DNA of 33,618 bases. Origin: a virus. Both the position numbers and the translations under genes were made by a program. The notes beneath the pieces are model-generated. The model was not told where the DNA came from, made no database searches, and saw nothing but the letters and a program-made list of their open reading frames with translations. Position 1 is the first letter of the stretch; the number at the start of each line of letters is the position of its first letter. Below, one piece after another: positions 10,704 to 27,557 of this stretch. The stretch covers positions 1-33,618 of the IMG/VR virus record IMGVR_UViG_3300031576_000217. One strand, written 5' to 3'.

Positions 10704-11119
10704 TTTGCAATCTTTTCTATGGCTTCCTGAATTGCCGTTTCCATCGCAGATGTAATACCGTCGATCTTGGTCAACGTGCCGTGCCCAGACCCGAAAGCCA
10801 AGATGTCGGCTACGGTGTTAAGTCCAACTGACGCCAACGCTACTTTTGCTTTCTTCGATACAGCGAGTTTTTCTATCGCCGTGATCTTCCATAAGTCGGG
10901 ACTTGGCGGTCGCTTCTCCGGCGGCGATTCGCTTGGCTCCATTGCATCTGTTGGCAGGTCAATATATTCACCAGCCAGCACCGCTTGACCCAAGCGAATC
11001 ATCGTCATCAATACGCTCTCGCGAATATCGCCTAGGTGATCTCCACGTTTGTATTGCTTGCTGACTCCACCACTGGCGACAGTAATGGAGTCAATGTTCA
11101 AGCGGTAACTGCACAGCAT
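10700..11119 (-). CDS. Head-module protein with a helix-hairpin-helix-like domain (139 aa)
   Basis: The first 50 residues (SITVASGGVSKQYKRGDHLG and following) are mixed. A proline-rich acidic hinge (EPSESPPEKRPPSPD) follows. Residues about 77-139 look like a helix-hairpin-helix/RNA polymerase alpha-CTD-like unit: AIEKLAVSKKAKVALASVGL, then TVADILAFG, LTKIDGIT and a final helix. Such domains bind nucleic acid or proteins. It follows the capsid gene, where lambda has FI. It could help attach the connector or contact packaged DNA. The fold assignment is by pattern only. Its stop overlaps the start of the fusion enzyme. Confidence 0.65.
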   Translation of the reverse strand: MLCSYRLNIDSITVASGGVSKQYKRGDHLGDIRESVLMTMIRLGQAVLAGEYIDLPTDAMEPSESPPEKRPPSPDLWKITAIEKLAVSKKAKVALASVGLNTVADILAFGSGHGTLTKIDGITSAMETAIQEAIEKIAK

Positions 11120-11134
11120 TATTCAGCCGAAGGA

Positions 11135-12856
11135 TCAACCCTCGCCCTTGTAGAGGCCACGCCAATCGAGCCCCTTTGCACCGATGTCCATCTTCACGTC
11201 CCATCCGAGACCCCAGCGACCTTGGGTAAGCACAAACGGCCGGACTTGAGGAACGCGCCCGGTGCCGCGCAAGTAGCCGACTTCGATCGTGTGCGACCCG
11301 GCGCGTGCCGCCAAATACCAATCGTTATTGGCACCGGCATGAGTCGTTGTCGGGACGGTCGGATCGACCACACCGTTTTCCAGGCGCGGCTCGACGACGA
11401 CACGCAACTTTTGATAGTTGGGGTTATTGCTCGGCGTCTTCGCGACATCCGTCGAAATCAGCATCCGAGAATTGACCAGCGAATCGGCATCGTCTTCCAA
11501 CGTCGGCGGCACGATCAGGAACTCGGACATCAGGTTCAAGTTGCGGACGCCCTCGCGCTGCAACCGCATGGCGGAGCGACCGGCCCCGAGCTTGCCTGCT
11601 GTCGCCAATCCGGCCGCTGTGGCGAGGTTGCCGTGGGTGGCTGTGTGGAACAACGCAACGCTGTCGCGCATGTTCGGATTCCCAATCAGGATCGAGTACA
11701 CCAAGTCGGGGCGAAGCTGCCGCGCAGCAACACCAAGGTCGGCCGGTGCGAATTCGTTGGCGGCACCGAACGTGTCGTCAACGATGTCCTGATCGTCCAT
11801 GACGAATTGCTTGGCGTACCGCGCGATCCGATACGATTCGATCACGTCCTCATGGGTTGCGTGGTCCGCTTCTTTTCCACGCGGCAGCTTGACCAACGCT
11901 CCACCCTGAACAAGTCGAATGCGATCGTTGGTCTTGAAATCCGCCACGTCGGCTTCACGAATCCAGCCGCCAGTTGTCGAGTCAGGAGCAGTTTCAAACG
12001 CAGTCAATAGCTGCGAGTTGATATTGGTCGTGAAGATATTTGACAGCGTTTGCGTGCTGAAACCAGACCGCAAGTACGCCTCCAGCAAACCGTTGCGACC
12101 ATTCGGAAGCGTCACGCCGTCAACTCGCGCGGCCATCCGTAGGAAATCTTCCATCGAGCACGCCCGGTACTGCCACGCCTGCTCGGCGATACCGGCCAGA
12201 TCGTTACCGCTTCGACGTACTGGCATACAGTTGTCGTTGCCGACCCAGCCTTGCGCCGGGTTGATGCCGCTGCGGTGCAACATGGCGGCTTCGAGAACTT
12301 GCGAAGTCATGCCACTCACGCTGCTGCGGCTGTGCGCTGCCGGCACATTCGGCCGATCCGGCGTCACTCGCGCGCGGGTGCGGGCCTGATAGTCCTCGAA
12401 AATCCGCTGCCGCGCGGCATCGGCCGTGATTTGCAAATCGGCAACCAGCGTATCGACCAGCTCTTGCGAAGTGCTGGCGATGGCGGCGTACTCGCGAATG
12501 GCCTGGACGCGGGCGCGTTCGCGATGCGCGCCTTCCGTGCGGGCGGCTTCCAGGTCGGCGCCGTTGGCCGCCGCGCCGTCGGTTCCGGCTTGCCGCTGCG
12601 CTGCCGGCGTTTCTTCCGGCAGAACTTCGCTCGGCTTTTCCGGGTTGTAGCCCAGAGCGCGGATCATCAAGTCGCAGTTGGTCCGCGCGGCGTGATCGTC
12701 TTCGTTATAGTTGAGGGCGTTGGCGATCGACGCCTGCAAGCCGCGGAGACTTTGATAGAACGCCCATGCTTGTTCATCGGTGGCGTTGTGGTCAAGTCGA
12801 TCGCCGTTCGGATTCGCACCGATGCTACGCAGGTAGGCAAGAAGTCGTAGGTTCAT
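11135..12856 (-). CDS. Major capsid protein with N-terminal scaffold-like region (573 aa)
   Basis: The start MNLRLLAYLRSIGANPNGDR has a strong GAGGAG site and overlaps the protease stop (ATGA). Residues about 1-185 are charged and helical with coiled-coil character (DLEAARTEGAHRERARVQAI) and a basic/proline linker. They resemble the delta/scaffold segment that a prohead protease removes. Residues about 190-573 match the style of Mu gpT-like/HK97-fold capsid subunits. Segments include LSNIFTTNINSQLLTAFETA, KQFVMDDQDIVDDTFGA (the E-loop/A-domain area) and, near the end, LTQGRWGLGWDVKMDIGAKG. No separate scaffold gene is present, which supports the fused arrangement. The cleavage site is unknown. 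Confidence 0.85.
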   Translation of the reverse strand: MNLRLLAYLRSIGANPNGDRLDHNATDEQAWAFYQSLRGLQASIANALNYNEDDHAARTNCDLMIRALGYNPEKPSEVLPEETPAAQRQAGTDGAAANGADLEAARTEGAHRERARVQAIREYAAIASTSQELVDTLVADLQITADAARQRIFEDYQARTRARVTPDRPNVPAAHSRSSVSGMTSQVLEAAMLHRSGINPAQGWVGNDNCMPVRRSGNDLAGIAEQAWQYRACSMEDFLRMAARVDGVTLPNGRNGLLEAYLRSGFSTQTLSNIFTTNINSQLLTAFETAPDSTTGGWIREADVADFKTNDRIRLVQGGALVKLPRGKEADHATHEDVIESYRIARYAKQFVMDDQDIVDDTFGAANEFAPADLGVAARQLRPDLVYSILIGNPNMRDSVALFHTATHGNLATAAGLATAGKLGAGRSAMRLQREGVRNLNLMSEFLIVPPTLEDDADSLVNSRMLISTDVAKTPSNNPNYQKLRVVVEPRLENGVVDPTVPTTTHAGANNDWYLAARAGSHTIEVGYLRGTGRVPQVRPFVLTQGRWGLGWDVKMDIGAKGLDWRGLYKGEG

Positions 12857-15306: not shown

Positions 15307-15624
15307 CTAGGCAGATTCAACACTCTTGAAATTCTGCCCGCAGTCAGAACATTTGTGATAACGAATCCGGTTACTATGCTTCGACGTGACCACCGTGTTT
15401 TTGCTGTCGCACGTCGGGCACTTCACGCGCTGATAGACCACGCCGTTGACCATGCCGCCGTTCGGTTGAGGGTGGAAGCCGACGGTAAATAGCTTCTCGC
15501 AATGGTCGCACTTGAACCGCGCCCACGGCTTTCCGAATCGTGATCCTGCATCGTGCAATTGGACCGCATTACACCCGCACTTCGGGCAGTCAGGGCCAGC
15601 GGCTTTGGTTAATTGCTCGCTCAA
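15307..15624 (-). CDS. Double zinc-ribbon protein (105 aa)
   Basis: Four cysteine pairs are visible: CPKCGC and CDHC in the first half, CPTC and CSDC in the second. They form two ribbons of the C-x2-C / C-x2-C kind. The second ribbon (VKCPTCDSKNTVVTSKHSNR, then RYHKCSDCGQNFKSV) resembles small DNA-binding ribbons such as Ogr/Delta activators or the N-terminal ribbon of transposition regulators. The ATG overlaps the terminase stop (ATGA). It may be a late-gene activator or a packaging accessory. The sequence shows metal binding but does not decide between these. Confidence 0.7.
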   Translation of the reverse strand: MSEQLTKAAGPDCPKCGCNAVQLHDAGSRFGKPWARFKCDHCEKLFTVGFHPQPNGGMVNGVVYQRVKCPTCDSKNTVVTSKHSNRIRYHKCSDCGQNFKSVESA

Positions 15625-17705
15625 CCCTGCATCCTCGCGTACCAGTTGTCGGCGGCAGGGAGCGTTTCGTCCGGCACCGGTTCCTGCTCCGCCTCCTCAA
15701 CCGGCACGTCGGCGATGTCGCGCAGGCTAAAACCAAGCTCATTGCCGGCGGCGAGCGCCATTTTCACGCAGTCGCCCCAGTGGTTTTCGCCAGATTGAAT
15801 CCACTTTTCGACCAACCCGCCACGCTTCGCGTCCCATTCCTTGACGAGTTGATCGCTGCAAAGGTGATTCGAGAGCTTGGCGTGTTCGTTTTTCGTGTCG
15901 GCGGCGAAGAATGTCAGCGAGCCCTTGCGACCTTGCTTGGTGCGCAATCGCTCCTGCATGTAGAGAATCCAGAAATCGGAATTGAAAGTCGTTTCTGGTA
16001 TGCCACGCTTGAAATTCCATTCCCGATACCACTGCATACCGACGATCGGCGTGGATGTACTGACGCGCTTCGGATGGTTGTAGCCTCTGTTGTTTCCCTG
16101 AATCGACTTGCCGCGCCCGCGCCCGCACTGAAAACGACCTCGCAAGCCGCCGCCGGCTGCCTTCGTCGCGGCAGCTACGTCATCCGGCATATAGTTCATG
16201 TCTGTCCACACGCGACCGGGAACGATAACCGACGACGAATCGTAAACGTGGAAGCCTTCAAGCAATCGCTCATCATGTTCGCGCAGGGCGTTGACAATCC
16301 GCGTCGAAAGATCATCTTGCGGCCCGCGGTAGATATCGAAACAACCGTAGGCCGGCACGGTGATTTCACCAGACTCGCGAAACGCGACGGCCGCCCAGTA
16401 GCCAGTCCATTTGCCGATATCGCGACCAACCGCGACGTACATCGTGTCCGGTGGAAGAATCCCACGCGACCAGTCCGTGCGGCGCTTGCGGACAACTTTC
16501 GGATTGAGCGGCTCGTTGTCGGCCAGTGAAGAGACGTACGGCGTCGCAAATGCCTTCTGACACAAGTCGCGTTCCGAGTTTTCACGGTCCAGCGTGCCTT
16601 CCTCAATCTGCGACGCTTCCCACTCTTTAACTGCGGTATCACCAGCATTTAGCAGGCAGTTATGCCAAGCGCTCCAACGGAACCAAAGACGAAGCGTGGG
16701 CGGAAGTGGGCCTTCAATCGCGCCGTCAGTGCCGATCACCTGCCCGTGGTGGATGATTCGAACGTCTCGCAGCGCGGTCCTGCGCTGCGAGTCGTCGATC
16801 CCCATTCCGCATTCGGGGCAAACAAACACGGCCTCATCGAGCACCTGCATCATGCTCTTTGCGTTTTGCCAGCCGCGCAAATGCTCACGCTCGGGAGAAA
16901 TCCACGCTCCGCAATGCGGGCATGGAGAAACTAATTGCGACCGAGAACTGGCGAGCGTGTCGTCATCGTCTCGACCGCGCAGTCGCCACGGCAGATGATC
17001 TTCAATCGTGCCGGTCCCTTCGGCCACAACCAGGCGCCGACGGTCTTTCAGGCTGAACGCACCGAGTCGGCCGATCAATTGACGGTACGCATCGGCCTCT
17101 TCATCGGTGTCCGACTTCGAAGCGCCACTAAATCCAGCCGCCTCGGTGATTCGAAGCCGCGCCGAGGTGTAACCGGCTTTGTTCGTCGCCTGACCACCGC
17201 GACTCATCACTTTGATGTCAACGCCGTTGCCGAGCGTCACCCGATCTTTGACACGACCGCCCTTGGCGCCGGATCCTGACGATGGAATCAGCCATTGCAG
17301 GTCCGGTGAAGCGTCGAACACCGGCCTGAAATCCTTGTCCCACTTGTCGGCGAACATGTCGGCTTCCGGGACGCCAACGATCGGCGACAGCCGCAACTCG
17401 ACAACATCGCGAAGTGTGGGCACAACCAGGGCACCGAAGCTCTTGCTGGCCTGAACTGGTCCGGTGACCGCAACTTCTTTCCAGTATTCGCGGTCTAGTT
17501 CGTCCCACAGAACGCCGATCACTGGTTGCCACTCAGACTTAAACCGCTCGCCGCCGCGGGGGCCGCTTTGGGGCATTGTGATGTACTTTTCGGCGAACTG
17601 GCGGTGGGTCAGCGGTCGCTTGGGCCGTGCCTCCCTGATCAGCCGCGACCACACCAGTTTTCGCGCGGTTGATTTCTTCGTCAGCGCGCTGGAGGCCGTC
17701 ACCAT
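15621..17705 (-). CDS. Terminase large subunit, GpA family
   Basis: The ATPase half holds a degenerate Walker A (VTGPVQASKS) and an acidic Walker B-like ARLRITEAAGFS. The conserved entry FAEKYITMPQSGPRGGERF is typical of lambda gpA/GpA terminases. A central zinc-binding insert has CPHC and CPEC. The nuclease half starts around YVAVGRDIGKWTGYW, with GENHWGDCVKMALAA near the end as a late acidic/His motif. It packages DNA into the prohead and cuts it. The start is placed at ATG 17705 (MVTASSALTKKS). TTG 17738 and ATG 17735 are alternatives. The 5' end overlaps the small-subunit gene by about 170 bases, which is long. Confidence 0.88.
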   Translation of the reverse strand: MVTASSALTKKSTARKLVWSRLIREARPKRPLTHRQFAEKYITMPQSGPRGGERFKSEWQPVIGVLWDELDREYWKEVAVTGPVQASKSFGALVVPTLRDVVELRLSPIVGVPEADMFADKWDKDFRPVFDASPDLQWLIPSSGSGAKGGRVKDRVTLGNGVDIKVMSRGGQATNKAGYTSARLRITEAAGFSGASKSDTDEEADAYRQLIGRLGAFSLKDRRRLVVAEGTGTIEDHLPWRLRGRDDDDTLASSRSQLVSPCPHCGAWISPEREHLRGWQNAKSMMQVLDEAVFVCPECGMGIDDSQRRTALRDVRIIHHGQVIGTDGAIEGPLPPTLRLWFRWSAWHNCLLNAGDTAVKEWEASQIEEGTLDRENSERDLCQKAFATPYVSSLADNEPLNPKVVRKRRTDWSRGILPPDTMYVAVGRDIGKWTGYWAAVAFRESGEITVPAYGCFDIYRGPQDDLSTRIVNALREHDERLLEGFHVYDSSSVIVPGRVWTDMNYMPDDVAAATKAAGGGLRGRFQCGRGRGKSIQGNNRGYNHPKRVSTSTPIVGMQWYREWNFKRGIPETTFNSDFWILYMQERLRTKQGRKGSLTFFAADTKNEHAKLSNHLCSDQLVKEWDAKRGGLVEKWIQSGENHWGDCVKMALAAGNELGFSLRDIADVPVEEAEQEPVPDETLPAADNWYARMQG

Positions 17706-18147
17706 GCTCTCTAATCCACTGTTTTGCAGCGTCATCAATGGCGGCCAGCATGATCTCTTGGCAAGCTGGCGGAAGTTTCTCGATGCCCTTGCGTACCGAA
17801 CCAGCGAACAAATCGACGTCGCGCGTCGCGTCTCGCACGTGTAATAGGATTTCGAGGTCTTTGTGGTAGCGGAGCTCTTCCCGGTTCGCCTTGATTAGCT
17901 TTAGCCGTTCGTCCTGGTCTGGAGGCTTAGCATCGGTCGGGACCTCAAATCGAATGCGGGCGTCGATCCAACCAGGAAAATAAATCCATAACGGTGTGCC
18001 TGGCTTGCCATCGCCGCGGTGTTCGAAGGGCACGCCAAATGATCGATGCATTCGCTGGAATTGGGCGTGCTTGATTCCGAGTCGCGATCGGAGCTCGTCG
18101 GCTCGCATCCATCGCAGGTCGGTTTCTTTGAATTCTTGGCCATCCAT
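17539..18147 (-). CDS. Terminase small subunit, Nu1-like
   Basis: The 202-aa product starts MDGQEFKETDLRWMRADELR, an N-terminal winged-helix-like DNA-binding region with RSRLGIKHAQFQRMHRSFGV. A LKLIKANREELRYHKDLEI helix follows, and then a GSVRKGIEKLPPACQE helix, both typical of Nu1-like subunits. The C-terminus is basic and proline-rich (KVHHNAPKRPPRRRAV) and lies over the start of the large subunit. It should bind the packaging start site and recruit the large subunit. The gene begins after a 234-base AT-richer gap that may hold its promoter. Confidence 0.8.
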   Translation of the reverse strand: MDGQEFKETDLRWMRADELRSRLGIKHAQFQRMHRSFGVPFEHRGDGKPGTPLWIYFPGWIDARIRFEVPTDAKPPDQDERLKLIKANREELRYHKDLEILLHVRDATRDVDLFAGSVRKGIEKLPPACQEIMLAAIDDAAKQWIREHGDGLQRADEEINRAKTGVVAADQGGTAQATADPPPVRRKVHHNAPKRPPRRRAV

Positions 18148-18381: not shown

Positions 18382-19524
18382 TCAATCGTCATCGCACAAC
18401 ACATCAAGCGCCAACTTCAAGACCTGACCAACGAACGGAACGACGTCGATCGTGATGGTCGTCGTGTCGAGGTCTTCGGCCTGAGTCGCATCGATAACGA
18501 TGGACACGTACTTACCGTGCATCCCGATGTTGACAGTGAATTCACCGCTGCTGCTCAGGCCATTCAACACATTCTGAATGTTGCTGGTCAACTGTTTGGT
18601 GCAGTCGACCCACACTTGGCTGATCTCGCCTGGCACAATACGCAACGCGGGGAACGCTTTGACCACACCATCAGCCCGCGAGCCAAGTTTGGCCGTGCGA
18701 GCTGGGACTGGCTCCTGGTTGTGCACCTGTGCAACCGAGCCAGCTAAAGCCGTCGTTGAATCGACAAGCGTCACGCGGGATAGGTGCCCGCTGGCGTTGA
18801 TGCCCAGCGACCGGAAGTTGGGCGGAACGGCCATGTCTTTAATCGCATAAGTCGCCGCGTCGGTGATCGTCCAATTCGGCGCGCTGTCCACCGTCACAGC
18901 CAGGCGACTAGCGCTTACATAGGTCGAGGTGACAATGGTTCGTTGCGTCAGCCGGCCACCTTCGCGGAGCACGATCGTTGCGCCCACGAGGTCGACACCG
19001 CCGGCGACGAGGCCGCTGCCCGTCCAATTCAGGGTGTAATTGGTCTGAGTGGTGACGTCTTCGATCCCGCCCGCGTTTAGAAGCGTGCCGTAACCATCGC
19101 CGTTGAAGTAGGCTGCGGCGTTGGCTCCCGTGAACGCGATGCCGCCGAACTGCGTGGCGTCCACTTGCAAATAGTCAGTGCCAGCAGCCGCGAACAGGGA
19201 ATCGTAAATGTTCGCCGGCACTATGTAGAAATCCGCCCACACGGGTAAATTCGTCGTCGCGTCCACGAATTGCGCGCGGAGCGTCCCCACCGTGCCCGTG
19301 TCCGTCGCATTGAGCGTGACGCGGTAGTTTCCGTAGCTGTCGTAGACGCTCGCCGTAACCGTGGCCGCACGCACTGCCATCGCAGCGCCGTTCTTACTGA
19401 GCTTGATGCCTGTGGTGGCGTGGTCCAACGCGCCGGCCAGACCGATCTGCAGCGTCACCCCGTCCACTTCATCCACAAATGGACCGAACGAAATCACCGC
19501 ACTTGTGGATTGTTTTAGAAACAT
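18382..19524 (-). CDS. Virion fibre or receptor-binding-like protein (380 aa)
   Basis: It starts MFLKQSTSAVISFGPFVDEV, overlapping the phosphoesterase gene by 10 bases. The N-terminal 120 residues (GVTLQIGLAGALDHATTGIK, GTLRAQFVDATTNLPVWADF) follow the pattern of many phage tail-fibre and baseplate-attached proteins. Further on are a repetitive beta-rich middle with Thr/Val/Gly and a C-terminal block (FPALRIVPGEISQVWVDCTK). No membrane segment or catalytic motif is seen. A surface or host-recognition role is inferred from composition and from its companion LamG protein. It is encoded before the terminase genes, away from the tail genes. Confidence 0.6.
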   Translation of the reverse strand: MFLKQSTSAVISFGPFVDEVDGVTLQIGLAGALDHATTGIKLSKNGAAMAVRAATVTASVYDSYGNYRVTLNATDTGTVGTLRAQFVDATTNLPVWADFYIVPANIYDSLFAAAGTDYLQVDATQFGGIAFTGANAAAYFNGDGYGTLLNAGGIEDVTTQTNYTLNWTGSGLVAGGVDLVGATIVLREGGRLTQRTIVTSTYVSASRLAVTVDSAPNWTITDAATYAIKDMAVPPNFRSLGINASGHLSRVTLVDSTTALAGSVAQVHNQEPVPARTAKLGSRADGVVKAFPALRIVPGEISQVWVDCTKQLTSNIQNVLNGLSSSGEFTVNIGMHGKYVSIVIDATQAEDLDTTTITIDVVPFVGQVLKLALDVLCDDD

Positions 19525-21230
19525 GGCTGCCTCATCCTTCGCATGTGCATTTTGGGAGCCGCTGCGGGAAACGGCCCTGTTTCCAAGCTCGTCGAGAAAA
19601 CGTCAGAGACACCAACATTGGGAAATTCACGCACGGCGGCCAGCGTGCCGTAGCCGCTCATTGTCGCGCCGCCGCTGGTGAATTCGCAGACCATCAGAAA
19701 CCCATTGCCGTCGCCGGCGCTTCCCAGGCCGGTCCGCTCCTGGTTGTTGACGACGAACGCCGACACGTCGTTGCCGTACGCGCCAGTCTGCGCCAAGTGC
19801 CCGGTCCGCGCTTCCGACGAGCTGTTGATGAAAGCGTGGCCGCACCAAATAGCGACCAGGTTCGGAATGTACTGGTAATAATTCGCCCACATATCGCTCG
19901 GCACGTGGTACGCCTCAGCTTCGCTGGCGTAGTAGTTGTTCGGATTGGTGCTGATTAGCGCCGCGCCGAGCGACGTGTCTTGCAGCACGTAATCGTGCCT
20001 CACCAAAAAAACGCGCTTGGTCGGGTACTGCCGGGCCTTGGCCTGGGCCCACTGGGCCTGGGCGATCGTGGGGCCGAACGGCTGCGTGATAAACAGGTCG
20101 GTTTGCGTGAAGCCGAGGTCCAAAAAGAACGAGTACGCGTACTGGTTGTAACCGCCGCCCGGCATCTGCTCGTTCAATTCGTTCTTGCCTGTAATGAGCA
20201 ACATTGGCAGGTTGCCGCTATCGTCCATTTCGGTGACGGTCCGCGTGGGCGCGTCCGCCCCGCTCTGGTCGCCGTCCAAATCGTGATTGCCCGGCACGAG
20301 CGTGACAAACAGGTTATTGATGACGATATCCAGGCCGGTCCGATGCTTGACGAACGTGCTCGTGCCGCCGCCATCGGCATAGCCGCGTTCGGTGTGATCG
20401 CCTAAATGAATTGCCGCCTTCAGATTCAGCACGCTGCGGTAGTCCTCGATCCACTGATAGAGTGCGTTGGTGGATGCCTGCGTGTAGGTGAGGTTTTGCG
20501 TGTCGCCGATGAGCACCACCGAGGGCGACTGCGCCGGGAACGGATAGACGCCGCCCGTCGTGTGCAGGAACAGCAACTTGCGCTCATCCGCCGTCAGAGA
20601 ACGCGACCACAGCATGGCCGGTCCCATGCGTCCGTCGTAACGATTCGCGACAGCGCCGTTGTTGAGGTGGCAGCCCAGCGTGACGTTGGCCATCGAATTG
20701 TGGAGGCCCGACGAATAGGCCGTGGAATTCTCGGCCCCGCCGTTGACCTGGATAGAGATATTCGCGCCGTCATACCGGGCGATGACGAGACACCAGCGAT
20801 TGGTTATCACCACGCCGAAGTTGTCGGCGACGACCGACGTTGGCGCAATCCCGTCGCTGCTCACCGCGAAATAGAGTTTGTTCGTCGAACCCGTGATGCC
20901 GATGGTCCAAGATCGCTGGTTGGTAGAGCCGCCGAAGTCGTACTGCCCGATGATTCCCTCGTCCACGCTTAACTGCTCGAACTTGATCCACACGGCGACC
21001 GTCATGTTCGAGCCGCTCAAATTGAATGAGCTGTTGTCGGCGATGAAAAGATGCCCCTGGTCCGCGCCCGCGTTGCGCTCGAAGTCGCGCGCCGTGGAAG
21101 ACACCAGGCCGGTGCCAGATTTTACAGAGCCGCTCACCGACAACGTATTGCTGCCGTGGCTATCGACAGCGCTGGCGTCAGCGGCTTCCGTGAGTGGCCA
21201 GTACGAAATAAGGTTATCGGTGAAGGCCAC
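19515..21230 (-). CDS. LamG-like plus metallophosphoesterase protein (571 aa)
   Basis: The start is GTG 21230, overlapping the upstream TAG (TAGTG) with a perfect GGAGG site. The much longer ATG-started frame only shadows the upstream gene. Residues about 1-210 are a LamG/concanavalin-type lectin domain: LISYWPLTEAADASAVDSHG, NMTVAVWIKFEQLSVDEGII, and the closing GRMGPAMLWSRSLTADERKL. The C-terminal part is a calcineurin-type phosphoesterase with metal motifs: VVLIGDTQ, AIHLGDHTERG, LVPGNHDLDGD, VRHDY and AIWCGHAF. No signal peptide is seen, so it is probably a virion component. It could bind host glycans and hydrolyse a phosphodiester in surface polymers, but the substrate is unknown. Confidence 0.8.
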   Translation of the reverse strand: MAFTDNLISYWPLTEAADASAVDSHGSNTLSVSGSVKSGTGLVSSTARDFERNAGADQGHLFIADNSSFNLSGSNMTVAVWIKFEQLSVDEGIIGQYDFGGSTNQRSWTIGITGSTNKLYFAVSSDGIAPTSVVADNFGVVITNRWCLVIARYDGANISIQVNGGAENSTAYSSGLHNSMANVTLGCHLNNGAVANRYDGRMGPAMLWSRSLTADERKLLFLHTTGGVYPFPAQSPSVVLIGDTQNLTYTQASTNALYQWIEDYRSVLNLKAAIHLGDHTERGYADGGGTSTFVKHRTGLDIVINNLFVTLVPGNHDLDGDQSGADAPTRTVTEMDDSGNLPMLLITGKNELNEQMPGGGYNQYAYSFFLDLGFTQTDLFITQPFGPTIAQAQWAQAKARQYPTKRVFLVRHDYVLQDTSLGAALISTNPNNYYASEAEAYHVPSDMWANYYQYIPNLVAIWCGHAFINSSSEARTGHLAQTGAYGNDVSAFVVNNQERTGLGSAGDGNGFLMVCEFTSGGATMSGYGTLAAVREFPNVGVSDVFSTSLETGPFPAAAPKMHMRRMRQPCF

Positions 21231-22234
21231 TAATTCGCCTCCCACACGTAGTTTGCCTTGAGGCTCCGCTCGATGTTGATGCGGACCCTGGCCTTGTTCA
21301 GCAGGATCGGGTCGCCTTTGATTTCTGCGGTGTCGCTGGCGATTCCGCGAATATGCACGACCGGTCGCGACCATTCGTAGGCGCACAGTTCTTCGAGCGG
21401 CGAGCCCACCGCATCGCCGCCGTCCATATCGACCCGCAGGCGAAAGAAGCCGTTGTTCTTGTTCGGATAAGTTTTCTTTTCGGCGTCGCCCAGCAACAAC
21501 CAGCGGTCCCAACTGCCGTTGGTACGGATGTCGGCCACGATCTTGCCGCCCTGCTTGGCCCAGATAACCGCCTTGCCGTTGCCTGCGGCGTAGAGATCGA
21601 AGCGATGATCCACCGACTGGTTATCATCGGTGATGATGGAGTAATCGACCGTATGCGTCACGAGTTCACGGGTGCGGGTATGGTCGCAGTGCCCGCCGCC
21701 GTCGCCGTTGTCGGCGTGCAGGATGCCGATCTCGCCGTTCGTCACAGTGACGCGATCGAAGCTGGTCATGCCGACCGGCCACTCCGCGCCCCTCTGCGTA
21801 ATCTCGACGATCGGGCCGGCGCTCATGGCCGTGTTGTGCTGGCCGGGCCACACGATGCAACCGGCTAGGCCGATGTCGGCGACGCGGAACCGCGAACGGC
21901 GAATCCTCAGCAACGGCTCGGCGTTGTCGCGCGGGCGGGCGTCGATGATCTGCGTGACCGCCACCCACGGAGCGCTCCACGCCGAATAAGGCTTGGCGAA
22001 GTCCGGCGCGCCGCTCCCCAGCAGGGCGCCGCCGACGCCGCTGCCTGCGTCCATCATCGTGTGGGCGTAAAACACGCCCACCGGCAGAAGCTTGGCCGCC
22101 CGAATATGTTCCACAATGGCAGGCCCGGAATCCTTCGTCCGGTCGTTGTGGTACAGCTCGGCCGCCTGTGCGGCATTGATTGCCGCCAGCCCCGTGAGGA
22201 GAATGCAGCTAGTGAGGCGTACGATGGAATTCAT
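21230..22234 (-). CDS. Secreted beta-rich protein with Sec signal peptide (334 aa)
   Basis: It begins MNSIVRLTSCILLTGLAAIN, then AAQA and a likely signal peptidase site before AELYHN. The mature part has repeating beta segments with Asp/Asn turns (ITDDNQSVDHRFDLYAAGNG, GGGHCDHTRTRELVTHTVDY), which suggest a right-handed beta-helix. The fold is not certain and no polysaccharide-lyase active site is identified. A phage protein exported by the host Sec system could act in the envelope, or could be displayed or secreted. Its end overlaps the LamG-phosphoesterase gene. The start has no clear ribosome binding site. Confidence 0.7.
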   Translation of the reverse strand: MNSIVRLTSCILLTGLAAINAAQAAELYHNDRTKDSGPAIVEHIRAAKLLPVGVFYAHTMMDAGSGVGGALLGSGAPDFAKPYSAWSAPWVAVTQIIDARPRDNAEPLLRIRRSRFRVADIGLAGCIVWPGQHNTAMSAGPIVEITQRGAEWPVGMTSFDRVTVTNGEIGILHADNGDGGGHCDHTRTRELVTHTVDYSIITDDNQSVDHRFDLYAAGNGKAVIWAKQGGKIVADIRTNGSWDRWLLLGDAEKKTYPNKNNGFFRLRVDMDGGDAVGSPLEELCAYEWSRPVVHIRGIASDTAEIKGDPILLNKARVRINIERSLKANYVWEAN

Positions 22235-22325
22235 GGAATGGGCACTGTGGTGGGCCGTGGTGATTCTGGCGTGGCCGCTGGCCGGGCTGGCGATCGGTTA
22301 TCTGTTGGGGTGGCCTCCGGGCTGA
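22224..22325 (+). CDS. Plus-strand membrane micropeptide (33 aa)
   Basis: This short ORF reads MEFMEWALWWAVVILAWPLA, then GLAIGYLLGWPPG: a single strongly hydrophobic helix with tryptophans at both ends. A GAGG motif lies 6 bases before the ATG at 22224. A second in-frame ATG is at 22233. The reverse strand over the same bases carries no credible protein. It fills the 105-base gap between the holin-like gene and the signal-peptide gene, overlapping the latter by 11 bases. Antiholin or small membrane regulator are possible roles. Its size and lack of homology keep confidence moderate. Confidence 0.4.
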   Translation: MEFMEWALWWAVVILAWPLAGLAIGYLLGWPPG

Positions 22326-22339
22326 CTCTCAGTGGCGTT

Positions 22340-22567
22340 TCATTCTTTCGTCCGCTTCAAAATCTCTTTGATGTCCGTCCGCACTTCGCTGAACCCGGTG
22401 CCAATGGTGTGTTCGATGTTTTGGACTTTAGCTTCCAGGATGACGATGCGATTGGCCCACACCAACAGCGCGGCGAACATCGCGACGGCATGGATGGCGA
22501 TGAGGCCGATGAATTTCCACCATTCGCTGCTGGCGAACTTCGTGTTGCCATTTTCGTCTCTGCCCAT
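22340..22567 (-). CDS. Holin-like/XhlA-like membrane protein (75 aa)
   Basis: The start is taken as ATG 22567 (MGRDENGNTKFASSEWWKFI). A TTG ten codons upstream is less likely. One membrane helix is present (FIGLIAIHAVAMFAALLVWA), followed by an amphipathic coiled-coil-type helix (VQNIEHTIGTGFSEVRTDIK) and a basic end. A single helix with a charged coil at the C-terminus is the layout of XhlA-type haemolysin/holin accessory proteins. It lies in the exported-enzyme cassette where lysis genes are expected. Role inferred from layout. Confidence 0.65.
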   Translation of the reverse strand: MGRDENGNTKFASSEWWKFIGLIAIHAVAMFAALLVWANRIVILEAKVQNIEHTIGTGFSEVRTDIKEILKRTKE

Positions 22568-22586
22568 CGCATGGAAGACCCTTGTG

Positions 22587-22853
22587 CTAAAATCCAAACC
22601 CGAATACTCGCAGCACGTCGCTCGGATTGAGCCCGATCATTTCGGCGATTCGTCGCAGTTCCTGTTCCAAGTGTGGCCCGCTGGTTTCCTCGTCGTCACA
22701 CCAACAGTTGGCCGATACGGTCCACTGGCCGCGCTCGTACACGGCGATGATCTTCCACTCGTTGACGTTGCGGAGCGTGCGACAAATGTTCTCGTCCTCA
22801 CGTTCTGTCTTTCGAGTTGTCCCGCAACCACTGATAAACGCCCCGGCCGACAA
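22587..22853 (-). CDS. Small cysteine-containing protein between holin-like genes (88 aa)
   Basis: The first codon of this frame is TTG at 22853, and its first 19 or so codons overlap the upstream holin-like gene. A start further in is possible, for example the GTG in front of YERGQWTVSA, which would give about 51 aa. The confident core is NEWKIIAVYERGQWTVSANC and WCDDEETSGPHLEQELRRIA. It ends with MIGLNPSDVLRVFGFGF. No family is recognised. FISGCG near the N-terminus looks like a lipobox, but there is no proper signal sequence ahead of it, so I do not call a lipoprotein. A soluble partner of the membrane proteins is possible. Confidence 0.55.
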   Translation of the reverse strand: MSAGAFISGCGTTRKTEREDENICRTLRNVNEWKIIAVYERGQWTVSANCWCDDEETSGPHLEQELRRIAEMIGLNPSDVLRVFGFGF

Positions 22854-23025
22854 TCACGGCTGCGCCCGCCAGCGCCGCGCGCCAGTTGGCAGAGACCGTC
22901 AGCACGCCGACCAGCTCCGCACCATTCGCGATCACGACCGTCAGCAGCACGGGGCCGAGCCAGTCGATGACGCCCTGGGCCTCGAAGGCGCCGAACGCGC
23001 CAGCTTTGTTGCCGAAGAATCTCAT
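22798..23025 (-). CDS. Small two-helix membrane protein, candidate holin (75 aa)
   Basis: The start is ATG 23025 (MRFFGNKAGAFGAFEAQGVI) with GGAGG four bases upstream, overlapping the caspase stop (ATGA). The longer upstream frame is a shadow of the caspase gene. Two hydrophobic segments are visible, GVIDWLGPVLLTVVIANGAE and WRAALAGAAVIVGRGVYQWL, with a basic C-terminus (DNSKDRT). Size, two helices and a charged tail are typical of class II holins. Position next to exported enzymes supports this. Confidence 0.7.
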   Translation of the reverse strand: MRFFGNKAGAFGAFEAQGVIDWLGPVLLTVVIANGAELVGVLTVSANWRAALAGAAVIVGRGVYQWLRDNSKDRT

Positions 23026-23735
23026 GCCACCTCCGCAAATGATTGGAGCGTGCGCCGCTTCATCGCGTTGTCTGTGTAGAAACACGGATGTTGATTCCAA
23101 CGATCGTTCGGCAGCATCTTCTGGATCCGCTTGTGCAGCGCTGGCAGCGTGGTGTTCGTCTGCCGCTCCGCGAACGCTTCGAGGAAGGTCAGCGTCATGG
23201 CCCCGCCCATGCCCGTGCTGAATGCCACTTCTCCCGCCCGGCAGGCCGCATACGTGGCGTTGGGCCGCTTCACGCCGCGCGTCGGCAGTTCGGCCGTGTG
23301 TTTGAAGCAATGCTTCACCGCGACCGTGCGGGCCTTTCCGTGTCCGCGGGGCAGGCCGCCAGAGAAACAACAGTCGGCCAAGCTGGCCAGCATCGAGCCG
23401 GCCGCACGCTTGGTAAGCTCGGCCCGCAGCTCGAAGTCGTAAATCAATTCCAGGCCGTGGCACACGATGGCTTCGACGCGCTTGCCCTTGATCGTGTCGA
23501 ATGTGCCGTGACCACTGAAATACAGCAGGCCCAAGTCGCCCTTGCCAAGCGTGGCCAGAAACTTGCGGACCGCCGTGAAGATGCTGTTGCGCGTGGCCTT
23601 CTCGGCAAGCAAACACTTGGCGGACGCGCAGAACGGCTCGAACGCTTCCGCGATGTTCGTGGCATCCAATTCGCAGTCGGGCAGCTCGCAGCTTTCGCCG
23701 CGGTTGTTGCTCGCGATGGCCAGGAGGTGGATCAT
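23022..23735 (-). CDS. Caspase-like cysteine protease (peptidase C14), 237 aa
   Basis: It starts MIHLLAIASNNRGESCELPD, the short first strand and loop of the caspase fold, with a DATNIAEAF helix. The catalytic histidine is in LLYFSGHGTF (His76). The catalytic cysteine is in LASLADCCFSGG (Cys123, in the D-x-C-x-S-G pattern). Both dyad residues are intact and in the right order and spacing. No signal peptide, membrane segment or repeat domain is seen, so it should be cytoplasmic unless processed otherwise. Metacaspase/orthocaspase proteins are common in bacteria but unusual in phages. The start overlaps the nuclease-fold gene stop (ATGA). The substrate is unknown. Confidence 0.85.
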   Translation of the reverse strand: MIHLLAIASNNRGESCELPDCELDATNIAEAFEPFCASAKCLLAEKATRNSIFTAVRKFLATLGKGDLGLLYFSGHGTFDTIKGKRVEAIVCHGLELIYDFELRAELTKRAAGSMLASLADCCFSGGLPRGHGKARTVAVKHCFKHTAELPTRGVKRPNATYAACRAGEVAFSTGMGGAMTLTFLEAFAERQTNTTLPALHKRIQKMLPNDRWNQHPCFYTDNAMKRRTLQSFAEVA

Positions 23736-24250
23736 TCGCCGAGCCTCCCGCCTTTGGTCGTGCTGGCAAACTTCATGCGGACCTGCGTCTGGCCCAACGA
23801 TTGGCCGTTGACGACGACTTCCGACAGCAGCCGTTCGAGCGACAGATAATCAATCACGCGATTCGATTCGACGGGCAGCCGGATGAGACCGCTCTTGCCG
23901 AGCGCCAGCGATTCCAGATTTTTCTTGCTGGCGATGCCGCTGCGATAGGCCGCCTCGCGTTGGCTGACGTTGGCGATGCTCGATTGACGACGCGTCTCAT
24001 CGGCCCAACAGCCGCGGCCGTGCGCCCCCAATAGCCGAATGCGGACGATGATCGACTTCACGGCCAGCGTGCCGCCGCCGACCAGCGGCAGTTCCCAATC
24101 GACCGGCACGGCCGCGTCGAGCGTGTCGCCATCGACGATGCTCACCACCTCGCAGGTAATCTCGACGGTCCGCAATATGGGCGGATCCTTGGCGGGTACT
24201 GGGCCCGCCAAGGCCGCCGCGGTCACGAAGGTAGCGAACCATCGAAGCAT
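23732..24250 (-). CDS. Exported SNase-like protein, catalytic site partly changed (172 aa)
   Basis: Start ATG 24250: MLRWFATFVTAAALAGPVPA is a plausible signal peptide, with the mature part starting near KDPPILRT. VVSIVDGDTLDA matches the staphylococcal nuclease IDGDT block. VKSIIVRIRLLGAHGRGCWA corresponds to its RLLLVDTPE block, but with AHG where the nuclease has D-T-P and no glutamate there. VESNRVIDYLSLERLL matches the GR-containing region. Two key acidic residues therefore look replaced. It may be a binding or structural SNase fold rather than an active nuclease, or the alignment may be off. The upstream extension of the same frame shadows another gene. Confidence 0.65.
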   Translation of the reverse strand: MLRWFATFVTAAALAGPVPAKDPPILRTVEITCEVVSIVDGDTLDAAVPVDWELPLVGGGTLAVKSIIVRIRLLGAHGRGCWADETRRQSSIANVSQREAAYRSGIASKKNLESLALGKSGLIRLPVESNRVIDYLSLERLLSEVVVNGQSLGQTQVRMKFASTTKGGRLGE

Positions 24251-24252
24251 GC

Positions 24253-25173
24253 TTAGTCGGGAGCGCGGCCGCCCGTCGTGACGTTTTTCTTGATGGGAAT
24301 TGCCAGCGGGTCGCCGCCAGCAACGCGATCCTCGATTCCGGGGAGCGTGCTTTCCCAATCGCCTTCACCCTCGAGGTACGTGACCGGCCAGCGGGCCGCA
24401 AACTTGAGGGCCGTGGTGTATTGCACGCCGCGGATGCGCGATAAGTCATTTTCCGTCGGCCACCACGATAGCGCCGGCCGCTCCATCGTCTGCTCATGCG
24501 ATGGAATTACGTCTTGCGGCTTATAGTTGGCGCTCGAGAACTTTTCGGGGGCAATCACGAAATCCGGATTAGTCCGAATCTCTTCGGCGTCGTACCCGAA
24601 ATACTTCGTGGCAGCACGCAGGAACGCACCACGGATATAGCTTTCGATGACGTCTGCCATCGGACCGCTCACGCGATCGATATACTCGTTCGACGAGTGC
24701 TGCATGATCTCGCCGAGCAAGTTCAGCCCCCACGCCGCTTGGTCAAGACAATCCTCTTGGCGCACGCGCGAGCCGAAAAACGGAATCGGGAACACCAGGA
24801 AAGTCTTACGCTGGTTGCGCAGGTGGGCCGGGTCGATGTCCAGTGTCGTGCCCGGGTCGATGCGGTAGGCTCGCACCATCGAGCGCAGTAGCACCAGCGC
24901 CTTCTGCCATTCCCACCACCAATCCTTGTGTGGCGGTGCCGAGAATTGCACGTCGACGCGGTGCATCAGGTCGAACAGCGTGGCCCCGATGAGCTTGTGC
25001 ATCTTGAAGATCGTGGTGTTGTTGGTCCACGTCTTGCCCTGTCCGTTCGGCATCCCGTAGCCGGCCATGCCCCAGCGACCGTCTTTGAACCACAGGATTT
25101 CGTCGGTTTGCCAGATCTCGCGCAGTTCATCGGGCGTTCCGGCTTCGTTCGGGCTAACTTCTGCGGCCGTCAT
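24253..25173 (-). CDS. Unrecognised 306-aa protein in the secretome cassette
   Basis: The start MTAAEVSPNEAGTPDELREI has an AGGAG site 6 bases upstream, just past the end of the out-of-frame extension. It is soluble with no signal peptide. A tryptophan-rich stretch (APPHKDWWWEWQKALVLLRS) and several helical segments (GPMADVIESYIRGAFLRAAT, FGYDAEEIRTNPDF) stand out. It ends GGDPLAIPIKKNVTTGG. I do not recognise a family or active-site motif. It sits between the trypsin-like and SNase-like genes, so its job may be linked to theirs. Confidence 0.75.
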   Translation of the reverse strand: MTAAEVSPNEAGTPDELREIWQTDEILWFKDGRWGMAGYGMPNGQGKTWTNNTTIFKMHKLIGATLFDLMHRVDVQFSAPPHKDWWWEWQKALVLLRSMVRAYRIDPGTTLDIDPAHLRNQRKTFLVFPIPFFGSRVRQEDCLDQAAWGLNLLGEIMQHSSNEYIDRVSGPMADVIESYIRGAFLRAATKYFGYDAEEIRTNPDFVIAPEKFSSANYKPQDVIPSHEQTMERPALSWWPTENDLSRIRGVQYTTALKFAARWPVTYLEGEGDWESTLPGIEDRVAGGDPLAIPIKKNVTTGGRAPD

Positions 25174-25182
25174 GTTCAGCTC

Positions 25183-25467
25183 CTAACACCGTAATGTGCC
25201 GGTCGGGTCGCCTGAAAGCGCCAACTCTTTGATGTCTTCCACGTCGCGGAAAAGCTCGACCGCACGCACGGGTTTGTTGGGGTTATGGGCTAAGTATCTT
25301 TCTTTCGCCACGCGCCACGCTTTCGAGTCGGCGCTGTTTGGAATTTGGACTTCGACGTATTCGGTAATTCGCTCAATGCGTGGTTCTGGCTGCGGTTGAT
25401 TCGGCTCTGGCAGTTTGGGTTGCGGACGCTCGACCGTCTTAGGCGGCTGCTCTCCGAAAGGGCGCGG
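25183..25467 (-). CDS. Out-of-frame extension of the trypsin-like gene (94 codons), no usual start
   Basis: I translated this frame by hand. It opens after a TGA at 25470-25468 inside the end of the protease gene and closes with TAG at 25185-25183. It encodes PRPFGEQPPKTVERPQPKLP, then a proline-rich stretch (EPNQPQPEPRIER) and a charged domain containing ADSKAWRVAKERYLAHNPNK and VELFRDVEDIKELALSGDPT. No ATG, GTG or TTG occurs before a GTG at 25311, which would give only 42 aa. The frame is +1 relative to the protease. CCC TTT at 25462-25457 is one possible +1 slip site. It may be a programmed frameshift, a mutated longer gene or a sequencing error. Confidence 0.55.
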   Translation of the reverse strand, partial: PRPFGEQPPKTVERPQPKLPEPNQPQPEPRIERITEYVEVQIPNSADSKAWRVAKERYLAHNPNKPVRAVELFRDVEDIKELALSGDPTGTLRC

Positions 25468-26686
25468 TCACGGACCCCAGGCCGCGGTCTTCGAGTTTTC
25501 CGGTCAATCGTTTCTTGAGTCGCCGCGTCGCCAGCCACGCGCCTAAGCCTGCGACGGCCCCGATCGGCCCGAGCGCTGACGTTCCGGCGCCCAGCCACCA
25601 CTTGAGCGATGACGCGCCGCTGACCACGTTGCCGGCTCGCTCGGCCAGCGATGGGTCTGGTGGCACTTGCTGGTTGGGATCGGGAATCTGTTGCGCGATC
25701 GGCGGTTGCCGCGGCGGCGCCAGCCCGCCCGGTTGTTCGGCCCGCGGCGGATCATTGGCCAGCGGCGGGGCTTGGAGGTGCGGCGGGGCTGGCAGCGGCG
25801 GTTGCTTGCTAGGATCGGGAATCTCAATCTGGGGTCGCTGGCCAGAGGACCACGGCATTTGATCGCGGCGCGGAATGATCGCGCCGGGCCGACCTGGCAA
25901 AATGCCGTCAAGTAGTCCCTGGACGTAATGCAGCGGACAGCCGAACGCGGCACGTTGACCGCGATTGTAGGCGGTGCTTCCCACCGTGACGCAACTGTGA
26001 ATGACGCCAACCAAGCGACCGCTGCGGTCGAGAATAGGGCCGCCGCTCTCACCGGGAATGGCCTGACCCTTGAATTCATAAGCACCATGATTATCCTGGC
26101 CTTTGTAAATTGTTGAGCGAATTCGCAATCGGCCGTTGTCGCCGCCTGGGAAACCGGCCAGATAATAGGTTTCGCCGCGCACCGCTCCGGCTTGCGCGAG
26201 CTCGAATGCGTCGCTGCGCGGTCCGCCGCGGAGCTTGGCAATCGAGCAGTCGCTACCGCCTGAATCGAGCGGCGGGTCAATGGCCACGATGTCGGCAACT
26301 TCGGTCGTGCGGCCGTCGCTAAAGATAATCAGCACGGGGTCGCCCTTGCCGCTCATGCCGTGGGCGCAGGAAGCGATGTAGCTCTTGTCGCCGCCGACGT
26401 CGATGATCGCGCCGGACAGATAGCAGAACTCCCCATTGCCGATCATGTTGCGTATCCGCACGATCCGCGCGTCGCACCACGGCGGCAGCGGCTGTTGCGG
26501 CGCCACGTAGGGTTGGCCCGGCTGTTGCGGCTGCGGAGCCTGTTGGGTCTGCGGCGCTTGCCAGTCGCTGCCGTCGCAGTATTGCTCGCATTGGCCGGTC
26601 TGCGGATTGATGCGCCATTCGCATTTAGCGCGGGCCACCGAGCACGGCCACAGCAGAATCACGGCGATGATTGCCAGAACACGCAT
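25439..26686 (-). CDS. Exported trypsin-like serine protease with C-terminal membrane segment (415 aa)
   Basis: A signal peptide is clear (MRVLAIIAVILLWPCSVARA, cut near KCEW). A Gln/Pro-rich linker follows. The chymotrypsin-fold triad is visible: His109 in SYIASCAHGMS, Asp146 in GGSDCSIAKL and Ser224 in IPGESGGPILD. AAFGCPLHYVQGLLDG closes the domain. A long Pro-rich linker (about residues 270-345) leads to a hydrophobic segment (WLGAGTSALGPIGAVAGLGA), then ATRRLKKRLTGK. It probably stays membrane-anchored with the protease domain outside. An envelope-degrading or host-protein-cleaving function is inference. The end is followed by the out-of-frame extension. Confidence 0.85.
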   Translation of the reverse strand: MRVLAIIAVILLWPCSVARAKCEWRINPQTGQCEQYCDGSDWQAPQTQQAPQPQQPGQPYVAPQQPLPPWCDARIVRIRNMIGNGEFCYLSGAIIDVGGDKSYIASCAHGMSGKGDPVLIIFSDGRTTEVADIVAIDPPLDSGGSDCSIAKLRGGPRSDAFELAQAGAVRGETYYLAGFPGGDNGRLRIRSTIYKGQDNHGAYEFKGQAIPGESGGPILDRSGRLVGVIHSCVTVGSTAYNRGQRAAFGCPLHYVQGLLDGILPGRPGAIIPRRDQMPWSSGQRPQIEIPDPSKQPPLPAPPHLQAPPLANDPPRAEQPGGLAPPRQPPIAQQIPDPNQQVPPDPSLAERAGNVVSGASSLKWWLGAGTSALGPIGAVAGLGAWLATRRLKKRLTGKLEDRGLGSVTAPFRRAAA

Positions 26687-27120
26687 TAAAGCTCAATGCA
26701 TAAAATGATTGGACAGAACAAACCGCGCACCGCGCTGCGCGTCGCCGCGCCCACGGTCGTGACTCGCGGAATCTTCGCCAACCGCCGCAGTTGGCCGGGC
26801 GTGGCCATGCCGACGATTCGCGCCCCGCTATCGAAGTCGCCGCGTGGCGTAGAAAGCACGTAGCAGTACGTAGGGAATCGCGCGACGCGGTAATAGGCTG
26901 CACCTTGCGGCCAGTCCTTGGCGTTGTAAGTGCGCAGGTCGATGCCTTCGGCGCGGAGGCCCGCTTCTACCGGTTCCATCGCCGCGCAGGGCTGGCAGTT
27001 GTCGGTATGGAAGGCGAGGAGGTAGTTGGCGGCTCGGCAATTCGCCACGCAGCACAGCAGGAACGCGACGACCGCGATGGCAATCAGCAGCAGCCATTCG
27101 TATTTGCTCGTGTGGGTCAT
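26686..27120 (-). CDS. Membrane-anchored thioredoxin-fold protein with CQPC (144 aa)
   Basis: The ATG at 27120 overlaps the stop of the DUF1353 gene (ATGA). The N-terminus WLLLIAIAVVAFLLCCVANC is a signal peptide or membrane anchor. The thioredoxin-like part starts at NYLLAFHTDNCQPCAAMEPV, with the CxxC CQPC (Cys42, Cys45). The segment VARFPTYCYVLSTPRGDFDS matches the cis-proline strand region of the fold. It could keep exported, cysteine-containing phage proteins in the right redox state, or reduce host envelope disulfides. Phage thioredoxins are usually cytoplasmic, so the anchor is unusual. Confidence 0.75.
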   Translation of the reverse strand: MTHTSKYEWLLLIAIAVVAFLLCCVANCRAANYLLAFHTDNCQPCAAMEPVEAGLRAEGIDLRTYNAKDWPQGAAYYRVARFPTYCYVLSTPRGDFDSGARIVGMATPGQLRRLAKIPRVTTVGAATRSAVRGLFCPIILCIEL

Positions 27121-27557
27121 GTTGGGTCTCGCTTAAACCACGTTCGGATTTCGCGCCAATAGGACCACGCGCGAACCGCAACGTGCATTAGCTTGGCGCG
27201 CACGGGCCCGATCCCCGAATGCCTGAGCACGGCCACGAACACGGCGTCGGAAATCACGCGGTCGAGTATCTGGGGGTTGTCCGTTAGAAAATCGTGAATC
27301 AAGGCCGCGAGTATCGTGCGGTCGAGGGGGGAGAAGCCGCGCACGATCCACAGCAGGCGCGGGATCGACGCTCCGTCGAAATAGTAAGCGGCGGGAATCC
27401 GCAGGTCGATCATGCCGCGCTGGTAGCGTATCTCGCAGAGCGTCACGAACGGTTTGCCGCCGCCGTTCATGCGGTGATTCACGGCGATCGGAAAGGCCAA
27501 CTCGGCCGTGATGTTCACGGGGCCGGAGAGAATTTCCTTCAGGTGTCCCTTGGGCAT
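27117..27557 (-). CDS. DUF1353 family protein (146 aa)
   Basis: The start MPKGHLKEILSGPVNITAEL has GGAG six bases upstream. The DUF1353 landmarks are visible: IPAAYYFDGASIPRLLWIVR, then AALIHDFLTDNP, and a helical end (AKLMHVAVRAWSYW). The family is common in tailed phages near lysis or tail-module genes, but its function is not established. There is no signal peptide. The histidine/aspartate positions in HDFL suggest metal binding, as in the family generally. An overlapping reading frame with a hydrophobic start precedes it. Confidence 0.85.
   Translation of the reverse strand: MPKGHLKEILSGPVNITAELAFPIAVNHRMNGGGKPFVTLCEIRYQRGMIDLRIPAAYYFDGASIPRLLWIVRGFSPLDRTILAALIHDFLTDNPQILDRVISDAVFVAVLRHSGIGPVRAKLMHVAVRAWSYWREIRTWFKRDPT

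Follow-up and report, generated by a model that had tools for sequence, protein, structure and literature searches.

An exported protease-thioredoxin gene cluster that recurs in phages, often in the position of lysis genes

The lambda-type lysis cassette has the gene order holin-endolysin-spanin. A comparable stretch lies at positions 21230-27557 of the virus record IMGVR_UViG_3300031576_000217, a linear fragment of 33,618 bases that was analysed over its full length and is called the window here: an exported hydrolase and small membrane proteins are encoded just before the terminase, on the same strand. Unlike in the lambda-type cassette, the hydrolase is a protease accompanied by a thioredoxin, and no peptidoglycan hydrolase was recognised. 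An earlier reading of the letters without database searches (the sequence-only reading) had proposed both the limits of this cassette and its gene set, namely a DUF1353 protein, a thioredoxin, a trypsin-like protease, a 306-amino-acid (aa) protein, an SNase-like protein, a caspase, two holin-like proteins and a beta-rich 334-aa protein, and both were correct.

Our reading of the window may be likened to PeiW and PeiP, viral peptidases that act in lysis on an unusual wall; these are papain-like, carry pseudomurein-binding repeats and serve against the isopeptide wall of an archaeal host, and we know of no thioredoxin partner for them. The window protease, in contrast, is an S1-type trypsin and does not belong with PeiW/PeiP. 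Its nearest solved relatives are 3k6y and 3k6z, which we take to be MarP; they share with it the character of a membrane-tethered envelope protease but are cellular enzymes, and the NCBIfam MarP model scores 31 bits on the window trypsin against a cut-off of 250. Within the same capsid family as the window, the record G045 encodes an M15 endolysin (E = 6.8e-5) clustered with a protein of the membrane-helix/coil topology also found in the window, but this enzyme is a recognisable peptidoglycan endopeptidase and is located in the tail region, beside the tail genes. A 2025 survey of viral lytic proteins, in the part of its text that was available, gives PeiW and PeiP as pseudomurein endoisopeptidases of Methanothermobacter and uses neither the word planctomycet nor the word papain (PMC12596118). 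Titles and abstract openings in the literature gave no description of a protease-thioredoxin phage lysis cassette, with subscription papers mostly outside the search.

Judged by sequence, the exported protease-thioredoxin gene cluster is real and recurrent in phages, often in the lysis-gene position; the genes present, their export signals and catalytic residues, the recurrence and a thioredoxin-trypsin fusion were all observed directly. The most likely role of the cassette is to breach, at release, an envelope that contains protein and disulfides, a reading to which we assign a probability of roughly 0.5. At the same even odds, a late-expressed exported protease-thioredoxin cassette would replace or supplement the endolysin of a lambda-like lysis position. 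The genes at the centre of this reading are the following:

26686..27120, minus strand: membrane-anchored thioredoxin, 144 aa, with a hydrophobic N-terminus/membrane helix and CQPC at residue 42
25439..26686, minus strand: exported trypsin-like serine protease, 415 aa, with a signal peptide, protease domain, proline-rich stretch, weak C-terminal membrane segment and basic tail
15621..17738, minus strand: terminase large subunit of the gpA type, preceded by the cassette (PF05876, E = 1.4e-14; nearest relatives G001-G003, G005-G007 and G038, at 46-57% identity)

The protease matches Trypsin_2 well over its cut-off (E = 5.3e-14, 53.6 bits vs 27.6) and has an intact H109/D146/S214 triad, in agreement with the sequence-only reading; the older Trypsin model PF00089 has no match in the window, and the nearest PDB entry is the membrane-associated serine protease 3k6z (E = 0.0015). 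The thioredoxin call stands in part. Besides its CQPC motif, the protein is matched among the window genes by a hidden Markov model (HMM) of eight thioredoxins from other phages (E = 3.2e-6), but it falls below the Pfam cut-off (E = 0.019, 15.4 bits vs 23.5) and reaches a PDB thioredoxin only at E = 0.75.

Both domains occur in one protein in the related record G071, where a single 643-aa product (locus L152, 2717-4648) runs from a hydrophobic N-terminus through thioredoxin, trypsin and a proline-rich stretch to a membrane helix followed by arginines. Its thioredoxin domain has WCGPC and matches PDB thioredoxins (E = 4.9e-15) and the phage-thioredoxin HMM (E = 5e-17); its trypsin domain has GHG..D..GDSGG and aligns with the window trypsin at E = 6e-4 in a single comparison. 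The C-terminal membrane segment previously ascribed to the window trypsin is weak by hydropathy, and was not flagged, but is clear in this homologous fusion. A homologue of the 306-aa protein follows directly (phmmer, E = 1.2e-9), and the window order of thioredoxin, trypsin and 306-aa protein is the order of G071. That the two enzymes are fused in G071 and neighbours in the window is strong evidence that both exported enzymes act together. G071 is the sole record with such a fusion, and no second one was present among 92 related records.

The same pairing is seen with papain-like proteases. Searching viral contigs with a papain profile (A7) yielded at least 505 matches, and the class spans unrelated records of up to 226 kb; the locus counts given here refer to 80 loci out of these matches. 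All 80 have the papain-type Q-to-C motif, 78 of 80 have NSWG, and 10 of 80 papains have an N-terminus with RR resembling a twin-arginine translocation (Tat) signal. The Cys, His and Asn residues do not vary across an alignment of 14 papains, and what by eye are inteins lie directly before the papain catalytic Cys in L189 (3051-5219) and L199 (7286-8785). The identity of the class as papains follows from this C-H-N alignment, from the position of the inteins, and from the matches of G009 (Pfam C1, E = 1.6e-9; cathepsin L, E = 3.1e-8) and G060 (over the Pfam C1 cut-off); the G060 papain is homologous to that of G026 (E = 1.5e-20), which alone had no PDB match.

A thioredoxin gene lies within 1.5 kb of the papain, often adjacent to it, in 20 of the 80 loci (22 within 2 kb, 28 anywhere in the flank), or in 13 of 20 clusters formed at 70% identity. 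When thioredoxins were placed at random within the 28 loci that bear one, a mean of 8.2 resulted where 20 were observed (P = 1e-4). Among the families listed by Pfam for 115 neighbour open reading frames (ORFs) of 19 loci were thioredoxin (17), Trypsin_2 (2) and SNase (1); because these 19 loci had been picked for carrying thioredoxin, the scan confirms identity and not frequency. A terminase of the L188 type lies within 5 kb downstream in 16 of the 80 loci.

Sought in other phages, the cluster is found with the same order in G071 and with similar ingredients in L178 and L179, whose gene content repeats the window's components. L178 encodes an SNase-type protein, an exported protein, a papain and a thioredoxin; L179 encodes an exported trypsin, an exported protein, a papain and a thioredoxin, and a trypsin is also present in L183. 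At the E-value limits applied, the window trypsin, caspase, 334-aa and 306-aa proteins and the papains of G009 and G026 had no match in 50,697 named phage records. The cassette thioredoxin matched 86 of these records, which indicates that a thioredoxin alone is ordinary in phages.

The 92 related records were gathered with terminase and capsid profiles, the capsid searches representing the best 80 of 111; named phages are distant (three weak terminase matches), and searches of viral contigs with the 306-aa protein, trypsin or portal singly retrieved no direct relatives. Several relatives carry proteases unrelated to the window trypsin. In the 49-kb G005, the stretch from the early genes to the contig end encodes an exported subtilisin (E = 2.3e-29), an exported CAP protein, an alpha/beta hydrolase, a small membrane protein and other exported proteins. 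Papain-like genes are found in G009, G026, G027, G059, G060, G067, G068, G070 and G071. That of G026 lies ahead of the terminase; that of G027 follows a DUF1353 gene and a gene for an exported protein and stands where its contig ends; that of G009 adjoins a thioredoxin called by motif only (CAPC), with no Pfam or NCBIfam match. Eleven capsid-family records have at least 4 kb before the detected terminase match, and in 5 of these (G026, G059, G060, G068, G071) a papain- or trypsin-type protease precedes the terminase. In the same set, the subtilisin of G005 is at the opposite end of the contig, and G053 has a C92-like protein before the terminase (E = 0.0023, below cut-off).

Two observations on these relatives stand on their own. 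The G053 gene (10728-11411, capsid-oriented), for a C92-like permuted papain-like amidase, sits beside a one-helix membrane protein and perhaps encodes another substitute enzyme. In G027 (L050, 17273-19008), a 417-aa protein that by eye is TnpB/Cas12-like is followed by a CRISPR-like array of 8 repeats with 66-base spacing and two repeat variants, possibly a phage-borne miniature type V system.

The sequence-only reading had seen no recognisable endolysin, and this holds for the 40 main ORFs of the window chosen for the Pfam scan, in which no peptidoglycan-hydrolase family exceeded its cut-off. Below threshold, SLT_4 touches a small ORF at 22590-22853 (E = 0.026, 14.6 bits vs cut-off 27) and a PHROG endolysin touches the DUF1353 protein (E = 0.29). 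An unrecognised hydrolase, whether the 306-aa protein, the ORF with the weak SLT_4 match or an unseen gene, might still be what lyses the cell, with protease and thioredoxin in a supporting role only, either removing envelope proteins or activating the hydrolase; we consider this unlikely, though not negligibly so. The records are fragments, and the window being one of them, an endolysin may lie beyond its ends; the folds of the 306-aa and 334-aa proteins are unassigned, and planctomycetes, if they are the hosts, possess lysozyme-sensitive peptidoglycan, according to the accessible part of PMC4432640. However, the 306-aa protein has no hydrophobic N-terminus by topology, and Pfam found no peptidoglycan hydrolase among the scanned ORFs of three relatives (38 ORFs and 20 families in G005; 48 ORFs and 23 families in G026 and G027). 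The records of 30 of the 80 papain loci (1.52 Mb; up to 226 kb) were also searched with Amidase_2, Phage_lysozyme, M15_3 and SLT, and none of these four families had a match at E = 0.01, while control genomes were matched. G002, which covers the terminase, the tail genes, an integrase and early genes in that order, has no lysis gene visible by eye; between them, G002 and the window cover the gene regions of the group except, mainly, for a portion of the early one.

The remaining cassette genes and the flank gene are:

27117..27557, minus strand: DUF1353 protein, 146 aa, first cassette gene (PF07087, E = 1.4e-15), overlapping the next gene by 4 bp
24253..25173, minus strand: 306-aa protein of unassigned fold, with no Pfam, PHROG or NCBIfam match worth naming
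23732..24250, minus strand: SNase-like protein, 172 aa, with an export-like N-terminus (pairwise E = 1e-5 to the exported SNase-type protein of L178)
23022..23735, minus strand: caspase-fold (C14) peptidase, 237 aa (PF00656, E = 3.5e-16, 60 bits vs cut-off 21.4), with the dyad H76/C123
22798..23025, minus strand: 75-aa protein with one hydrophobic helix, holin-like by size and topology only, with no family match
22340..22597, minus strand: small protein with, by topology, one membrane helix and then a coiled-coil-like tail (PHROG 404, minor tail protein, E = 0.0035)
21230..22234, minus strand: exported beta-rich protein, 334 aa, with no family match worth naming (Pfam, PHROG, NCBIfam)
19515..21233, minus strand: LamG and metallophosphatase flank gene, upstream of the terminase (PF13385, E = 7e-16; PF00149, E = 1.4e-5; homologue in G001/G003)

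The DUF1353 and caspase calls of the sequence-only reading are over their Pfam cut-offs. Among 50 capsid-family relatives searched for C1, M15_3, Amidase_2 and DUF1353, the DUF1353 family is present in one. In G027, the DUF1353 gene ahead of the exported protein and papain-like gene matches at E = 2.2e-11. For the SNase fold, the pairwise similarity to L178 is retained, but the protein has no Pfam or PDB match of its own; in the alignment read by eye, DGDT, the glutamate of CWA(D/P)E and a late Arg are kept, and the likely start at 24250 yields MLRWFATFVTAAALAG, with its export-like N-terminus. The caspase has no hydrophobic segment and matches GSU0716 (E = 6.3e-10) and metacaspase-9 (E = 2.4e-5). 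Its proposed place in the release set, as a core part of the cassette, was not supported, for it was found in 0 of 38 relatives, few of which contain the cassette region.

The two proteins described as holin-like are so by size and topology, but neither has a holin family match in Pfam or PHROG. The helix-plus-coil topology of the 22340..22597 protein is seen by eye in G009, G026, G045, G053, G059 and G071 as well, with no mutual sequence match by phmmer among the small proteins of the window and relatives. A remote homologue of the 334-aa protein occupies the corresponding site in L003/L005 (against L003, tblastn E = 5e-4; 24% identity pairwise). That it forms a beta-helix was read from its sequence only and is not claimed. 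AlphaFold2 models of the 334-aa and 306-aa proteins had predicted local distance difference test scores of 29 and 33, respectively, too low for use.

The main genes of the window, whose G+C is 57-63% in 2-kb steps, are on the minus strand. From right to left they comprise YqaJ and RusA, several unknowns, the cassette (27557-21230), the LamG-metallophosphatase gene and a 380-aa protein; further leftward follow a small terminase-like gene, the gpA-type terminase, a lambda-family portal, a capsid_4 capsid and more head and tail genes, the tail genes being named via relatives. The cassette occupies a lysis position, between early RusA/YqaJ-type genes and the terminase and on the strand of the latter. 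Four of its junctions overlap by 1-4 bases (DUF1353/thioredoxin 4, thioredoxin/trypsin 1, SNase/caspase 4, caspase/75-aa 4), with gaps of 265 bases ahead of the 306-aa gene and 105 bases ahead of the 334-aa gene.

Two side observations concern genes near the terminase and among the head genes. LamG-type proteins or unrelated hydrolases (metallophosphatase, SGNH-like by eye) lie directly before the terminase genes in several records (window 18382-21233; L005 2280-4709; L006 861-3443; L049 8470-11585), several with a common C-terminal domain. Amid the head genes of the window, a 426-aa gene (9423-10703) has a Methyltransf_24 domain (E = 1.1e-16).

This layout bears on a second alternative, in which the cassette is a lysogenic-conversion or envelope-remodelling set serving superinfection exclusion, nutrition or surface proteolysis. 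Relatives do look temperate, with integrases in G002 and G005, the secreted CAP protein and alpha/beta hydrolase neighbours resemble exported accessory enzymes, and the presence of the protease differs among relatives. The overlapping junctions, the strand shared with the terminase genes, the lack of a promoter signal of its own and the recurrence of the class in unrelated records of up to 226 kb nevertheless make such a set improbable. Least probable of all is that the enzymes belong to the virion or act at entry, travelling with the LamG/phosphatase proteins to digest surface proteins at infection, for although the cassette adjoins the LamG-metallophosphatase and beta-rich proteins, and its DUF1353 and membrane-helix proteins match PHROG tail families, the hydrophobic N-termini and membrane segments in the cassette, together with the Tat-like N-termini of 10 of the 80 papains, point to export from the host cell and not to packaging.

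If the cassette does act on the envelope at release, as we favour, the membrane-anchored thioredoxin would face the periplasm and reduce disulfides of envelope proteins, and the membrane-tethered exported trypsin would then cut the unlocked proteins. The small one-helix membrane proteins may be a holin-like timer or pore, and the exported SNase could clear DNA or RNA spilled at lysis; papain or subtilisin would serve the same step in other phages. An envelope of the required kind is described in the accessible part of PMC3035269, where Planctomyces envelopes are protein resistant to sodium dodecyl sulfate, rich in proline and cysteine and disulfide-bonded. We advance only tentatively, as somewhat improbable, the broader joint claim that many uncultivated tailed phages do without a peptidoglycan hydrolase and are released by thioredoxin opening of disulfides followed by cutting by an exported protease, the protease type (papain, trypsin, subtilisin) being exchanged between phages whose hosts owe their envelope strength to disulfide-bonded protein.

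Protease-based release, as first put forward from the letters alone, has gained comparative support from the G071 fusion and its 306-aa homologue, the unrelated proteases of relatives, the papain-thioredoxin pairs and the absence of four endolysin families from 30 papain records. A number of points nonetheless weigh against it. What we infer is that the genes are expressed late, that the enzymes act in the periplasm with the envelope as their substrate, and that lysis results. Peptidoglycan is not cut by trypsin, and with planctomycete peptidoglycan being lysozyme-sensitive, a protease alone may not suffice. Ordinary lysis enzymes are annotated in two of the distant named relatives, namely an endolysin behind the tail genes of an Akkermansia phage and a lysozyme in a Paracoccus phage. 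Papain profile A9 had no PDB match, no thioredoxin lies within 2 kb in 58 of the 80 papain loci (some short of flank), and 8 of the 20 thioredoxin neighbours are seeds of the detecting HMM. Trypsin_2 and caspase are found in 0 of the first 38 relatives, mostly fragments without the cassette region, the trypsin-bearing G071 lying outside that set. Among the 11 records compared for position, G001, G002 and G003 have no protease before the terminase and G067 has its papain elsewhere; the G009 cassette comes after the capsid gene. All records are linear and often fragments, and in G005, G027 and G070 protease and terminase are at opposite contig ends, so that their adjacency, including the placement of the G005 subtilisin between early genes and terminase, assumes joined ends. 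The PHROG label of the DUF1353 family is tail assembly chaperone (E = 1.8e-15), and the promoter/terminator scan of the window gave no signal above chance.

The host assignment is a further such point, its sole pointer being sigma factors, of which that of G053 is near a Rhodopirellula/Verrucomicrobium subfamily, below cut-off. These genes, of the extracytoplasmic function (ECF) type, lie at 9571-10125 in G053 (capsid-oriented) and 11868-12581 in G004, and may be host flank or phage regulators. Terminase and capsid profiles revealed no prophages in sequenced bacteria, and a search of plasmids with the sigma factor gave no host.

Were release by such a cassette true, phage lysis would not always be peptidoglycan hydrolysis, and a principle distinct from holin-endolysin lysis would exist. 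The enzyme pair would then mark phages whose hosts depend on disulfide-bonded protein for envelope strength, providing a gene signature for their detection in metagenomes and a module testable outside the host, and protease-thioredoxin mixtures might be tools against lysozyme-resistant envelopes. If planctomycetes are the hosts, the finding also bears on how their envelopes hold together. Even without a role in lysis, protease and thioredoxin form a pair that recurs as a gene cluster in phages.

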